Origin: Anaerolinea sp.
GTDB taxonomy: Bacteria > Chloroflexota > Anaerolineae > Anaerolineales > Anaerolineaceae
Direction: 5' to 3'
NCBI GenBank assembly: GCA_020725865.1
Contig: DYEC01000020.1
Location: 1 to 64,000, forward strand
Length of the DNA stretch: 64,000 bases
The translations under genes were made by a program, and so were the position numbers. Under the pieces are notes generated by a model. It had not been told where the DNA came from. It was given only the letters and a program-made list of their open reading frames with translations, and did no database searches. Below are positions 4,650 to 49,661 of this stretch, piece after piece (within the stretch, counting starts at the first letter, position 1; the number at the start of each line of letters is the position of its first letter).

Positions 4650-4740
4650 GTGAAGCTTCGGCAACCCGACAATCTCGTTAGAGAGACTCGCGGCTTTGCG
4701 CCCCCATATTACTATGGGTTAGCTCTTTCGTGCTCCTGAA
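4650..4740 (-). promoter_or_regulatory. GEMM-I family cyclic-dinucleotide riboswitch aptamer
   Basis: Read on the minus strand, the region contains the conserved GEMM landmarks in order: CACGAAAGAGCTAACC, a hairpin CCATA-GTAA-TATGG with a GNRA loop, the invariant GGCGCAAAGCC (4692-4702), a second arm, and GGGTTGCCGAAGC (about 4655-4667). This matches the GEMM-I (c-di-GMP-I) consensus by eye. The base aligning with G20 of the Vc2 riboswitch reads A, a change known from the subgroup that responds to cyclic AMP-GMP. It sits about 100 nt before the start of the secreted phosphoesterase. The rest of the 408-nt gap between 4553 and 4960 is AT-rich; the 3' part near 4760-4860 probably holds the promoter, but I could not fix its boxes. 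Confidence 0.85.
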
Positions 4741-44818: not shown

Positions 44819-44950
44819 CGTACCACTCTCCAGGAGAATATTTCAATCCGCAAACGAACATTATACCCCTCACGGGGTGGATTGTCAAACAACGCGCCGC
44901 CGCACAGCCCGCCTGATGGCTGACCGCTTTGCGCCTTTCGCCGCGCTTTA

Positions 44951-44992: not shown

Positions 44993-47857
44993 ATGGATGA
45001 CTGGCAGAAATTGCTCTCCGAGCTGGCGAAAAAAATGACCCCGCCGCTGGCGTACGCGGTGATAGTGATCATTGTGCTGGGACTGCTGGGCGAGCGCATC
45101 CCGGCGCAGTATGTCACGCTGGTGTATCTTCTCAGCCTTGGGGTGGCTGTGCTGTGGGCTTTGATTGAGATTGCACTATTAATCAGGAAAGGCCGTCTGG
45201 AAACACCCGCGGAGAAACCGACTGATTCCCAATTCACCCAACCTCAAGAGCCGTCCAAAGCGCCGAAAGAAGATCCGCGCACAGCGTATCTGCAGGTGAT
45301 TATTGAGAAGTGTAGAAGTTTGCGGCTGGTAGGTATTGACCCGCAGGCGGCCGACCCCCTGCGCGGCGGCTTGACACTTGAGTCGGTATATACACAATTG
45401 GATACCACCACCCTGGTTGAACTTGGTGAAGAGAAAGCAGTCATTGAAAAACAGGAAAGAATTCCTGACTGGCTGTTTTATTTGGAAAAAAGACGACACC
45501 CGCTTGGCGCATTGGAGGCACTTTCCGGGGCGGATAGCCGCCGTATGGTTCTGCTGGGACAGCCCGGTACCGGCAAGTCCACTTTTGTGCGTTACCTGGC
45601 GTTGCGCATGGCGCAGGCGGAAATGGACCGTTCGCGCAGTGTGCAGGATTTACTGCCCGGCTGGCAGGGAGGCGCTGTGTTGCCGGTGCTGATCTCGCTG
45701 GGATGGCTGGCGGAAACCATTCCGGCTGACTGCAAGCAAGGCAGAGCCCGTTTAATAGAAGCATATCTTATTGAATCCTTGCAGATGGATGAACGAACAG
45801 CGCCGTTTGCCGGCTGCATTCTTGACGAACTGAAGCGATCTGGCGGTCTGGTGCTTTTTGACGGGCTGGATGAGGTGGCTGACCTGAAACTGCGACCAAT
45901 TGTGGTGCAGGCGATTGAAGATTTTGTACAGAGTTACGGAAAACATCCTGCCAGCCGCTTTCTTGTTACCTGTCGTACGTATTCTTATACTCATGACCCG
46001 AAATGGCAATTGACGGGCTGGGAGACCCATGAGCTGGCGCTGTTAGATGATAAAAAAATCCGTTTCTTTATCAATGCATGGCACGATGCACATATCGGTA
46101 TTGACAAGGGCCGTGAGCAAGATTATGAGCGTAAGCGCAAGAGCATGCTGGCAGCCCTTCAGCCGAACGACCGGCGCCGGCTCGACGAAATTGCACCTTT
46201 TCCCATCCTGTTGACCATGATGGCAATGGTGCATACGCATTACGGCGAATTGCCGGATACGCGCGCCGAGGTGTATGAGCGCTGCGTAGATTTGTTGCTG
46301 GTGCGCTGGGAACTGGAGCGCCCGATTGTCGGCCAACCTAATCAAACCCGTAAACGAACCATCATTGATGAACTGGGCATTCCAAGAGTAGTGCTCGACC
46401 GCGCGCTTTGGGAAGTGGCTTACAAAGCGCATCAAGGCCGCCCGGCGGAAGACGAAGGCGAGCGCAGGGCAGCCTTGGTCACCGAAGATTTGCTCTGTGG
46501 TGTGCTTCAGGCACATTTTCAAGACCTCGATAAAGTCAAAATATTTCTGGAATACTGTCAGAGTTCCAACGGTTTGTTGATGCTGCAGGGCAGTGTAATG
46601 CCGCCTGATGCTCCTCCGGGGGCACCGCCCCGGCGTATCTATGCTTTTCCGCACCCGACCTTTGAGGAATATCTGGCGGCGCGTTACCTGATCCGCCCGA
46701 ATTTTGGCAAGACCGTGCGCGATATGGCGCGTAGTAGCGACCGCTGGCGGGAGGTGATTCTTTTACTGGGAGAGACGCTTTGCTTTTTCCAGAAGGATCA
46801 AGAACGTATGGAAAGTTTGCTGGACAAGCTGGCGCCGCAAGATGCGCCCTCAACATCCCACGACCCAGACTGGCGTCCTATCTGGTATGCCGGAGATTTG
46901 CTGACGCTCTACCGGCGTGCCTTTCCAGGCGAACCTGCATCCAGCGATGAGCGCATTCGCAGGCTTTTATATGAATTGGTGGTTCGGGTCGCGCTCTCGC
47001 CACGTGAGCGCGCTTCCGCCGCGGATGCGCTGGATGAGCTCGGCTACCTGCCGGAAGACCTCTACGATTTCATCGCCATCCCGAGTGATGAAGCGCCGGC
47101 GTTCTTCATTGCCAAATACCCGGTGACCAACCTGCAGTACGAGCGTTTCCTCAAATCCGGGCGGTTTGCCGAACGGCAGTGGTGGGTGAATTTCCCAATG
47201 TTCGATGAGAAGAGCCGGCGGATGAGGGGCAAAAGCTGGGGCAGTCAGGGCTGGGAGTGGCTGCAGACGGCGCTCAAGGATGAAGACAACCCGGTGCGGG
47301 ACGGTGTACTGTACCCGCGCGACTGGGACGATCCGCGCTTCGGCATCGCCCGCAAGACGGCGCCGGTGGTGGGCATCACGTGGTACGAGGCGAATGCCTA
47401 CTGCAGGTGGCTGGCGCAGGAGCGCGGACTGCCCGAATGGGGCTCGCTGGGGCGGCTGAACCGCGGCGGGGGAACTCTGGAGATCCGCCTGCCGGCCGAA
47501 GCGGAGTGGGCGGAGGCGGCGGGGGGTGAAGCGAATGACCGCTTTGCCTGGGGCGTGCTGAAAGACCCAAAAGAGGAAATCGTCCGCTATGCCAACACAG
47601 CGGAAAGCGGGCTCGTGCGGACGACGCCGGTGTGGATGTACCCGCAGGGTGCCAGCCCGCGCCGGGTGATGGACCTGAGCGGGAACGTGTGGGAGTGGCA
47701 GGCGAACTTTTATGATAAAGATCATGACATGTTGAGCTTGCGCGGCGGTTCGTGGAGCGGCAATTGGAGCAGCGCGCGCGTGGCGAACCGCGACTTCAAT
47801 CCCCCGTCCAGCTACTGGCTCATCGGCGGCTTCCGCCCCGTTGCCCGCCCGGTTTAA
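44993..47857 (+). CDS. DGR target: membrane-anchored NACHT/STAND-like NTPase with C-terminal FGE/C-type-lectin variable domain
   Basis: The 954-residue protein has two N-terminal membrane helices (about 18-35 and 42-65), a linker, then a P-loop NTPase: Walker A LLGQPGTGKSTFV (187-199), Walker B GGLVLFDGLDEVAD (284-297), sensor-like SRFLVTCRTYSY (321-332). A helical region follows (to about 690). The C-terminal third is a formylglycine-generating-enzyme-type (SUMF1) fold: FFIAKYPVTNLQYERFLKSG, VVGITWYEANAYCRWLAQ, RLPAEAEWAEAAGG, VMDLSGNVWEWQ, LRGGSW, and GFRPVARPV. The last 40 residues are the variable repeat. DGR targets commonly use this C-type-lectin-like fold to present variable residues. 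I infer a signal-sensing or defence NTPase whose ligand-binding face is diversified. ATG follows GCAGGAGCGGGCT. Confidence 0.93.
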   Translation: MDDWQKLLSELAKKMTPPLAYAVIVIIVLGLLGERIPAQYVTLVYLLSLGVAVLWALIEIALLIRKGRLETPAEKPTDSQFTQPQEPSKAPKEDPRTAYLQVIIEKCRSLRLVGIDPQAADPLRGGLTLESVYTQLDTTTLVELGEEKAVIEKQERIPDWLFYLEKRRHPLGALEALSGADSRRMVLLGQPGTGKSTFVRYLALRMAQAEMDRSRSVQDLLPGWQGGAVLPVLISLGWLAETIPADCKQGRARLIEAYLIESLQMDERTAPFAGCILDELKRSGGLVLFDGLDEVADLKLRPIVVQAIEDFVQSYGKHPASRFLVTCRTYSYTHDPKWQLTGWETHELALLDDKKIRFFINAWHDAHIGIDKGREQDYERKRKSMLAALQPNDRRRLDEIAPFPILLTMMAMVHTHYGELPDTRAEVYERCVDLLLVRWELERPIVGQPNQTRKRTIIDELGIPRVVLDRALWEVAYKAHQGRPAEDEGERRAALVTEDLLCGVLQAHFQDLDKVKIFLEYCQSSNGLLMLQGSVMPPDAPPGAPPRRIYAFPHPTFEEYLAARYLIRPNFGKTVRDMARSSDRWREVILLLGETLCFFQKDQERMESLLDKLAPQDAPSTSHDPDWRPIWYAGDLLTLYRRAFPGEPASSDERIRRLLYELVVRVALSPRERASAADALDELGYLPEDLYDFIAIPSDEAPAFFIAKYPVTNLQYERFLKSGRFAERQWWVNFPMFDEKSRRMRGKSWGSQGWEWLQTALKDEDNPVRDGVLYPRDWDDPRFGIARKTAPVVGITWYEANAYCRWLAQERGLPEWGSLGRLNRGGGTLEIRLPAEAEWAEAAGGEANDRFAWGVLKDPKEEIVRYANTAESGLVRTTPVWMYPQGASPRRVMDLSGNVWEWQANFYDKDHDMLSLRGGSWSGNWSSARVANRDFNPPSSYWLIGGFRPVARPV
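47736..47855 (+). repeat. DGR variable repeat (VR), 3' end of the target gene
   Basis: The 120-nt segment encodes residues about 915-954 of the target and aligns with TR at a constant offset of 1640 nt. The variable codons correspond to AAC or AAT (Asn) codons of TR: for example TR would read GSWNNNWNNARVANR where VR reads GSWSGNWSSARVANR. The A-free block CGGCTTCCGCCCCGTTGCCC near its 3' end is identical in both copies and fits the role of the initiation-of-mutagenic-homing sequence. Confidence 0.96.
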
Positions 47858-47873
47858 GCTTTTGTTTTCTGTG

Positions 47874-47904
47874 CAAGCCCCCGCAGCGCAGCGGAGGGGG
47901 CTTG
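47874..47904 (+). promoter_or_regulatory. Inverted repeat just downstream of VR (homing hairpin or terminator)
   Basis: CAAGCCCCC and GGGGGCTTG form a perfect 9 bp stem 16 nt after the target stop codon, followed by TGTTTTCTG. In studied DGRs a hairpin/cruciform shortly after VR assists target recognition; it also looks like a terminator. Confidence 0.75.
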
Positions 47905-47961
47905 TGTTTTCTGCGTTCTGCCGGCTTAAAATTTTTTTAAAAGCCTTTTAAGGAGTGAATA

Positions 47962-49047
47962 TTGAAAACCTATCGCAATCTCTACCCGCAGGTCTATGAC
48001 TTCGAGAACCTCTATCTGGCGTACCGCCGGGCACGCAAGGGCAAACGCGGCAAAGCCGAGGTGGCGGCTTTTGAGCGCAGTTATGAGGAAGAGTTGTTTA
48101 TCCTGCAAAACGAACTGCTCCGCCGGACCTACACTCCGGGCGAATACCGCAGTTTTTACATCCATGAACCGAAACGCCGGCTGATCTCCGCTGCCCCGTT
48201 CCGCGACCGGGTGGTGCACCATGCGCTGTGTCAGGTCATTGAGCCGATCTGGGAGCGGCGCTTTATATTCGACAGTTACGCCAACCGGCTGGGCAAAGGC
48301 ACGCACCGCGCCCTCGACCGCGCCGTGCAGTACGCCCGCCGCTACCGCTACTTTCTGCAGTGCGACCTGCGCCAGTTCTTTCCCTCCATAGACCATGCTA
48401 TCCTGAAGGCTGAATTGGAGCGGTTGATTGCCGATGAAGATGTGCTCTGGCTGTGTGAGGTCATCCTGCACAGCGGGGCGGGCGTGCTCAGCGAAGAGTA
48501 TGAAATGGTCTGGTTCCCCGGCGATAACCTGCTGGCGGCGGCGCGTCCGCGCGGACTGCCGATTGGTAATCTGACCAGTCAGTTCTGGGCGAATGTGTAT
48601 CTCAACCCGTTCGATCACTTCATCAAGCGCGAGCTGAAGTGCGCGGCGTATCTGCGTTACGTGGATGACTTTCTGCTGTTTGGCAATGACGTGCGGCAGT
48701 TGTATGACTGGCGCACGGCAATTATTGAAAGGCTGGCTGTATTGCGGCTGACCCTGCACGCCGAAAGCGCGCAGGTGTTCCCGGTGCGGACCGGCATACC
48801 GTTTCTGGGTTTCCGCCTGTATCCGACTCACCGGCGGGTCAAGGCGCGCAAGGTAATTGCCTTTCGGCGCAGGTTGAAATCCATGCTCAAGAAACCCGTC
48901 CCTTATGAAAAATTGACCGCCAGCATCCGAGGCTGGATCAACCACGTCCGCTATGCGGATAGCTGGGGATTGCGCCGCAGGATGCTGGGCTTTCGTATCC
49001 CGCAGGAGGCGCATGGAAGAGTCACCGCTGTTTGTCCGCACGCATGA
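47962..49047 (+). CDS. DGR-type reverse transcriptase
   Basis: The 361-residue RT starts at TTG 47962, with AGGAG 7 nt upstream. Fingers/palm motifs are RRLISAAPFRDRVVHHALC, the first catalytic Asp (135) in FLQCDLRQFFPSIDH, GLPIGNLTSQFWANVYLNP (199-217; the IG-x-x-x-SQ form typical of DGR RTs) and YLRYVDDFLLFGND with YVDD at 233-236. There is no maturase, endonuclease or RNase H domain, so group II intron and retroviral types are excluded. It would copy the TR RNA with errors at adenines. It overlaps the Avd gene by 35 nt. Confidence 0.96.
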   Translation: MKTYRNLYPQVYDFENLYLAYRRARKGKRGKAEVAAFERSYEEELFILQNELLRRTYTPGEYRSFYIHEPKRRLISAAPFRDRVVHHALCQVIEPIWERRFIFDSYANRLGKGTHRALDRAVQYARRYRYFLQCDLRQFFPSIDHAILKAELERLIADEDVLWLCEVILHSGAGVLSEEYEMVWFPGDNLLAAARPRGLPIGNLTSQFWANVYLNPFDHFIKRELKCAAYLRYVDDFLLFGNDVRQLYDWRTAIIERLAVLRLTLHAESAQVFPVRTGIPFLGFRLYPTHRRVKARKVIAFRRRLKSMLKKPVPYEKLTASIRGWINHVRYADSWGLRRRMLGFRIPQEAHGRVTAVCPHA

Positions 49048-49348
49048 TTTTCTGCTCTGGCTGCTGCCGCAGGTGCAGAAGTTTCCCCGCCCGTACCGCT
49101 TTACGCTCACCGAGCGCATTCAGCGCAAAGCGATGGATTTTCAGGATTTGATCGTCTCGGCGGGCAAAGCACAGGGCGGAGAACGCAAGGCTTTTCTCAT
49201 GCAGGCGGACACGGCGCTGGAGCAGTTGCGTTTCTGGCTGCGCTTTGGACGCGAGCTGGAACTGTTGACCGCTGGTCAGTATGAACATGCCGCCCGCATG
49301 CTGGTCGAGATGGGGAGGCTGTTAGGAGGCTGGATCAAACGAGCCTGA
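49013..49348 (+). CDS. avd: Avd-like four-helix-bundle DGR accessory protein
   Basis: ATG 49013 (MEESPLFVRTHDFLLWLLPQ) has AGGAGG 3 nt upstream; the frame could extend to 48953. The 111-residue basic protein consists of four amphipathic helices, with FPRPYRFTLTERIQRKAMDF and LEQLRFWLRFGRELELL as recognisable family segments (23S-rRNA-IVP / bAvd type). In the Bordetella phage DGR, Avd forms a pentamer that binds the RT and the TR RNA and is required for cDNA synthesis. The gene sits between RT and TR. Confidence 0.92.
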   Translation: MEESPLFVRTHDFLLWLLPQVQKFPRPYRFTLTERIQRKAMDFQDLIVSAGKAQGGERKAFLMQADTALEQLRFWLRFGRELELLTAGQYEHAARMLVEMGRLLGGWIKRA

Positions 49349-49375
49349 GGCTCGTGGATTGGGCGTCAACCGGGG

Positions 49376-49495
49376 GCTTGCGCGGCGGTTCATGGAACAA
49401 CAATTGGAACAACGCGCGCGTGGCGAACCGCAACAACAATCACCCGAACAACAACTGGAACAACAACGGCTTCCGCCCCGTTGCCCGCACGATTT
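49376..49495 (+). repeat. DGR template repeat (TR)
   Basis: The 120-nt non-coding repeat begins 27 nt after the Avd stop. It is rich in AAC triplets (I count 34 A), and 21 of the A positions differ in VR while no non-A position does. By outcome the changes are mostly A to G, with several A to T and A to C. Confidence 0.96.
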
Positions 49496-49661
49496 TGTTG
49501 ACTGCCGGCAGTTTGTCCGGTTGAGAGACCGGCTTCGAGGCAAAACTGGCTGGTTGCACGCCCGGTGAACTCTGCAATGCAGAGTGCCAAATATTGAATC
49601 GCCCTGCCCGTTTCGGTAAGCGCAGGCAGTCCTGTGAAGAGCATCCGGGCAGGTCTTTTTT
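49496..49661 (+). ncRNA. Structured 3' tail of the TR RNA with terminator
   Basis: Downstream of TR are successive hairpins: ACTGCCGGCAGT (49501-49512), CCGGT...ACCGG (49517-49532), CTCTGCAATGCAGAG (49570-49584) and a terminator whose outer stem CCTGCCCG/CGGGCAGG (49603-49610 / 49646-49653) runs into TCTTTTTT and encloses an inner CAGG/CCTG hairpin. The position corresponds to the spacer RNA that binds RT and Avd and primes cDNA in the Bordetella system. No ORF is supported in this 390-nt stretch between Avd and DoxX other than TR and this tail. Confidence 0.7.

Follow-up and report, generated by a model that had tools for sequence, protein, structure and literature searches.

The window analysed here, bases 1-64000 of contig C18 of an Anaerolinea sp. 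genome (3.12 Mb in 26 contigs), holds at 44993-49661 a complete, undisrupted diversity-generating retroelement (DGR). It consists of a target gene ending in a variable repeat (VR), a reverse transcriptase (RT), the accessory protein Avd, a template repeat (TR), a TR-spacer RNA and a terminator. Its features are the following:

44993-47857, plus strand: target open reading frame (ORF), 954 amino acids (aa), from the ORF list
47050-47925, plus strand: module shared with a distal target (lectin domain, VR and post-VR element), ~95% DNA identity
47736-47855, plus strand: VR1, 120 nt at the 3' end of the target, in ungapped alignment with TR
47827-47848, plus strand: adenine-free stretch of 22 nt, identical in VR and TR, resembling an initiation of mutagenic homing (IMH) site, a role suggested by BPP-1 (PMC3240598)
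47858-47925, plus strand: post-VR element, with TTG/CTG units at 47862 and 47869, a hairpin, and CTG units at 47911 and 47918
47874-47904, no strand assigned: G+C-rich post-VR hairpin or cruciform, CAAGCCCCCGC-9 nt-GAGGGGGCTTG, 10/11 pairs
47962-49047, plus strand: RT, 361 aa, TTG start
49013-49348, plus strand: Avd, 111 aa, 35-nt overlap with RT
49376-49495, plus strand: TR, 120 nt
49502-49594, plus strand: structured, conserved spacer RNA 3' of TR, counterpart of BPP-1 Sp by position
49604-49661, plus strand: likely intrinsic terminator, read from the sequence as CTGCCCG...CGGGCAG followed by T6

The original prediction had described a complete DGR on one strand, with a 3' VR in the target gene, a post-VR hairpin, an RT bearing IG-x-x-x-SQ and YVDD, an Avd-like protein, a TR and a terminator. 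Each of these parts is present, and disruption of RT or Avd, the flaw of which it had warned, was looked for and found in neither; the target ORF is likewise undisrupted. The RT, whose TTG start is preceded by the Shine-Dalgarno sequence AAGGAG, carries IGNLTSQ and YVDD, has the DGR RT 8ub7 as its best sequence match in the PDB (E 2e-51) and is the sole RVT_1 match in the genome. Avd scores 96 bits against NCBIfam NF033474 (cut-off 80), also exceeds the Pfam bAvd cut-off, and matches the structures 4dwl and 8ub7 Avd. The terminator is legible in the sequence and absent from the list of the terminator scanner, which probably missed it because of its long loop.

TR and VR1 form a near-repeat, lie 1640 nt apart from start to start and differ at adenines only. 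Their 21 mismatches in 120 nt all fall on TR adenines (21/21, with 34 adenines in TR; hypergeometric p 6.6e-15), and from TR to VR1 they comprise 11 A>G, 6 A>T and 4 A>C changes. Read in the VR frame, TR holds 15 AAY codons, and mutation of its adenines reaches zero stop codons while making ~1.8e18 protein variants possible. From this anatomy we infer mutagenic retrohoming as the mechanism.

The non-coding part of the element is also under constraint. Folding energies were uninformative, that of the TR RNA alone being not significant and that of the post-VR hairpin alone ordinary (z -0.95), and covariation was therefore needed. In an alignment of ten spacer sequences (49502-49594 of the window and nine relatives), a covarying spacer hairpin is paired in 92.8% of cells against 81.5% after shuffling, double-change cells number 28 against 9.4, and the covariation score is 0.373 against 0.174, with each slid register far lower. 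By its position, this putative spacer corresponds to the BPP-1 Sp spacer, which recruits RT-Avd and is placed there between TR and brt (PMC12875486). That this non-coding RNA is constrained is an argument for a working retroelement.

The cis target is predicted to be a transmembrane (TM)-anchored NACHT/STAND NTPase with a C-terminal formylglycine-generating enzyme (FGE)/C-type-lectin domain. Hydropathy predicts two TM helices close to the N-terminus (aa ~14-65), a Walker A/P-loop motif (GQPGTGKS) is found at aa 189, and a Walker B-like motif (LVLFDGLD) at aa 286. The match to NACHT/nSTAND3 falls just below the Pfam cut-off, and the homologues at L007 and L079 are above it. The C-terminal domain (aa ~685-954) carries the VR, and Pfam FGE-sulfatase matches aa 700-950 (E 3e-30). 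An AlphaFold2 model of this domain, built from 33 sequences, reached a pLDDT of 82, a first version from 11 sequences having been poor (pLDDT 55). The model resembles TvpA (2y3c; Z 18.8, root-mean-square deviation 3.0 over 194 residues) and Mtd (1yu1; Z 12.9), and it also matches FGE/EgtB folds. A true formylglycine-generating enzyme was considered and rejected: the catalytic Cys pair is missing, there is no Cys in the VR region, and TR codes for Asn runs. The absence of the active-site cysteines from the VR region therefore points to a binding domain, not to an FGE enzyme.

A scan of the genome with the adenines of TR written as N returned exactly three matches, namely TR, VR1 and a second repeat, VR2, on contig C8 at ~146.0 kb. 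VR2 belongs to a gene that would be a second target, acted upon in trans:

L029:9987-12539, minus strand: distal target, 850 aa, KAP NTPase with the same lectin module

The KAP_NTPase match of this protein is strong (E 3e-34), and its neighbours are housekeeping genes (QueG, molybdopterin oxidoreductase and UvrA). VR2 differs from TR at 18 positions, 18/18 of them adenines, and every non-adenine site is identical; such a perfect non-adenine match is what Dore et al. took as the mark of trans diversification (PMC10907252). The TR adenines aligned with 47849 and 47852, the next after the IMH-like stretch, are C and G in both VRs. The shared module (47050-47925) has sharp edges and is ~95% identical before the VR, with 29 codons differing between the two targets, of which 22 are non-synonymous. 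By comparison, VR1 and VR2 differ at 0/86 non-adenine sites, while the part of the module next to them differs at 37/696, and beyond the stop codon the two targets are 100% identical over 68 nt. The joint chance of zero difference in the VR non-adenine sites and this tail is ~2e-4, which argues for recent homogenisation or constraint. It would thus appear that a single RT and TR act on two unlike sensors, one in cis and the other in trans. No third VR was found in the genome: a match with 3 mismatches on contig C5 was judged to be no VR, and three further FGE-domain genes have no TR-like stretch. Outside the VR, non-synonymous differences between the two targets are clustered at 47560-47615 (DPKEEIVRYANTAESGLVR against DLVTEIVRYANTDESRIGR in the same stretch of L029), perhaps reflecting diversifying or relaxed selection.

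The original prediction had also considered the DGR to be cellular rather than viral, and its neighbourhood and phylogeny support this. The flanks in the window encode a pyruvate-phosphate-dikinase-type protein, RecA, PfkA, an S1-domain protein, two tRNAs, DoxX, a histidine kinase and TsaD, and no phage or transposase genes were found among the flanking genes examined. In a maximum likelihood tree of 69 RTs, 14 of them viral, the RT of the window falls inside a cellular clade of 53 (support 100/99), and 14/14 viral RTs lie outside. This clade is mainly composed of Chloroflexota, with Acidobacteriota and Rhodocyclaceae nested within it and cyanobacterial RTs adjacent. RT matches occur in 26/147 genomes of the family, ~10 of them at DGR-level identity (>=49%), and in 51/400 genomes of the order at E 1e-60. 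The relatives have NACHT-FGE targets with adenine-only VRs, and several (L007, L014, L077) have two targets. Some genomes of the order have RTs identical to those in named Anaerolineae/Anaerolineales records, which points to Anaerolineales as the order. A comparison with empty sites gave none that could be defined, as the S1-domain orthologues in 12 family genomes adjoin no PfkA, DoxX or DGR.

Several genomes carry more than one DGR RT, namely G067 (L076, L077), G109, G366 and G394; the RTs of G067 come from distant subclades, which suggests independent acquisitions. On an Ideonella dechloratans plasmid (L148), two DGR-type RTs and two Avd genes stand side by side, near an integrase and in a phage-like region, and the tree places these RTs well apart from each other. 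Within the window, a perfect sigma-70-like promoter (TTGACA-17-TATAAT) lies at 44860-44888 on the minus strand, upstream of the S1-domain gene and divergent from the DGR; a promoter search upstream of the target found nothing comparable. A c-di-GMP-I riboswitch at 4657-4734, minus strand, scores over the Rfam gathering cut-off.

Taken together, we consider it highly probable that the locus is a cellular DGR of a Chloroflexota-dominated lineage that diversifies two sensors. In the proposed mechanism, RT-Avd would reverse-transcribe the TR transcript, which also carries the structured spacer 3' of TR, and the resulting cDNA would be randomised at template adenines. This cDNA would replace VR1 in cis, in the NACHT-lectin gene, and VR2 in trans, in the KAP-NTPase-lectin gene on C8, and which genes are targeted would depend on the IMH-like stretch together with the post-VR element common to both, with its phased units and hairpin. 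A foreign ligand, such as a phage or rival antigen, would then be bound by the varied lectin domain and switch the NTPase. Ligand binding probably has this effect because the varied lectin domains sit on NACHT or KAP NTPases, which is the plan of STAND sensors; the likely purpose is thus diversified ligand sensing coupled to an NTPase switch. Some points weigh against this proposition. It is drawn from a single genome, which cannot show variation of the VRs directly. For the action in trans, two contigs of this binned genome, whose contamination is estimated at 4%, have to be taken together, although mis-binning of C8 is unlikely because the module and TR matches are exact. An immune output is a conjecture, because N-terminal of NACHT no effector domain of the kind expected in a bacterial NACHT/Avs anti-phage protein was recognised: only the TM helices and a region of ~120 aa are present there, and neither PADLOC nor Pfam gave any further match.

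Other explanations of the same observations can be weighed against this one. The DGR could be no longer active, intact in sequence with frozen VRs, and only one genome of the genus was compared, in which polymorphism could not show. We regard such a state as improbable, in that all the non-adenine VR sites still match TR at two loci despite 5% divergence of the surrounding module, and that the RT, Avd and the spacer RNA show no damage and are also conserved among relatives. VR2 could likewise be a passive copy, the module having been duplicated or gene-converted from the cis target without retrohoming of the distal gene itself, an idea in keeping with the ~95% module sharing that extends into the non-coding tail. 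It is nevertheless disfavoured, and in our estimate has little chance of being correct, because copying alone would leave differences unconfined to TR adenines: within the 120 nt, every difference between VR1 and VR2 lies at a TR adenine, whereas elsewhere in the module sites of many other kinds have changed. Finally, DGRs move between genomes and the flanks of the locus are non-syntenic in family relatives, as would be expected of a DGR from a prophage or mobile element stranded in the chromosome. This origin seems very improbable indeed: there are no mobile genes near either locus, phage RTs are at most ~40% identical and fall outside the clade, a scan of viral contigs gave one match at 42%, and the target is no tail fibre but an NTPase.

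The post-VR element has an organisation of its own. Where the identity between TR and VR ends, units such as TTCTGAATTCTGATTTCTG begin, often followed by a G+C-rich hairpin; the array in the window is short, with two units either side of the hairpin. The hairpin loop is AGCGCAGCG on a stem with 10/11 pairs, and it departs from the phage type, a 4-nt GRNA loop on a stem of 7-10 bp; GRNA loops were seen at the phage loci L138, L140, L153 and L154. A perfect G+C-rich stem of at least 7 bp is found in only 14/31 Chloroflexota-type post-VR regions and in 0/31 regions after TR. Units of the pyrimidine-TG or CCCTTTA type, phased at 7-8 nt, occur at 47858-47925 of the window and at L007, L009, L013, L014, L018, L077-L082 and L114-L135, as well as at phage loci (L139-L141, L151, L153-L155, L157) and cyanobacterial loci (L143-L147). 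At 24 discovery loci, the density of TCTG is 3.1 per 100 nt against 0.5 at 320 control gene ends (p 2.5e-14), and the CTG-to-CTG spacing is 7 nt 43 times and 8 nt 20 times; a further 26 loci, partly overlapping the discovery set, have the same pattern. In 52 sequences left after removal of similar ones, self-similarity is highest at lags of 7-8 nt, with z 9.3 at lag 7 for Chloroflexota-type DGRs and, at lag 8, z 5.6 for plasmid/cyanobacterial and z 4.5 for phage DGRs; this peak is absent after TR. These statistics were picked after the pattern had been noticed, and the later sets support it. The hairpin and IMH were described by Guo et al. with no such array (PMC3240598), and no description of a phased post-VR array was found in a literature search that left subscription papers outside its reach. 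It is these phased units that may be new.

Their role can be understood in two ways. Arrays of the heptanucleotide (ATTTCTG)n are dispersed in G041 and G047 (L158-L170), many per genome and adjoining no lectin or RT gene, and the idea that phased units are exclusive to DGRs was rejected on account of such repeats. Together with the T-rich sequence that follows the hairpin, they favour a mere transcription terminator and a heptanucleotide microsatellite of these genomes, with no role in homing, which we regard as quite possible, if somewhat short of an even chance. This explanation has to contend with the chains of at least 3 units at 25/31 Chloroflexota-type targets against 5/214 control ends (Fisher 9e-24), with the strand bias of the units and their absence after TR, and with the arrays of phages and cyanobacteria, which have other unit sequences. 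In addition, between the two targets of L014 the unit cores are kept at 21/24 positions against 10/26 in the spacers, and the element is 100% kept at the distal target, where no RT gene lies downstream. Alternatively, it can tentatively be hypothesised that, across cells and phages, the phased 7-8-nt array is a second DGR recognition element beside the IMH and hairpin, a proposal that we put forward as speculative and on balance doubtful. The array might be recognised by RT-Avd in single-stranded or unwound form, for example around the Avd pentamer, in the way that the TRAP ring reads phased triplets, and it might travel with the lectin module and license even distant targets. If the units are functional, the accepted parts list of DGR targeting (VR, IMH, hairpin) would change, and they would be an aid to finding remote targets and to designing DGR-based directed evolution.

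The lectin fold of the cis target is of the FGE type found in TvpA of Treponema denticola, whose DGR reportedly has remote targets. The target in the window has an NTPase, which the surface lipoprotein TvpA lacks. With the BPP-1 DGR (Mtd, bRT, Avd; 8ub7) the locus shares RT, Avd, TR, spacer RNA, IMH, post-VR hairpin and adenine mutagenesis, although the order here is target-RT-Avd-TR-spacer and that of BPP-1 target-Avd-TR-RT, the hairpin loop is not a GRNA tetraloop, and the target is a sensor-like NTPase where that of BPP-1 is a tail fibre. Also close are the clade 5D STAND/NACHT-lectin DGRs from multicellular bacteria, filamentous Chloroflexi among them, which have a NACHT or KAP NTPase with a VR-bearing FGE-type lectin, often two targets, and a lectin module that is found joined to various N-termini by shuffling (Dore et al. 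2024, PMC10907252). Both targets here likewise would combine a NACHT/nSTAND or KAP NTPase with a single C-type-lectin domain carrying the VR. However, one TR here has targets with NTPases of two classes (NACHT and KAP), the second target being far away, and in the cis target two TM helices but no effector were recognised. In our tree of 69 RTs, the RT falls in the cellular clade next to cyanobacterial DGR RTs. In the cyanobacterial DGRs, VR-bearing lectin domains are similarly scattered over the genome and joined to a variety of N-terminal domains, but the RT subclade differs and the post-VR units are CCCTTTA-like there and TTCTG-like here (Vallota-Eastman 2020, PMC7517822). NACHT/KAP-lectin targets, trans targets and module shuffling have already been published (PMC10907252, PMC7517822 and Kaur 2020, PMC7159879).

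The locus described here is a clean chromosomal two-target DGR in Anaerolineales, whose single RNA template appears to diversify two unlike NTPase sensors. It can be regarded as a tractable example of how hypermutation is combined with the shuffling of domains in what may be a bacterial immune receptor.

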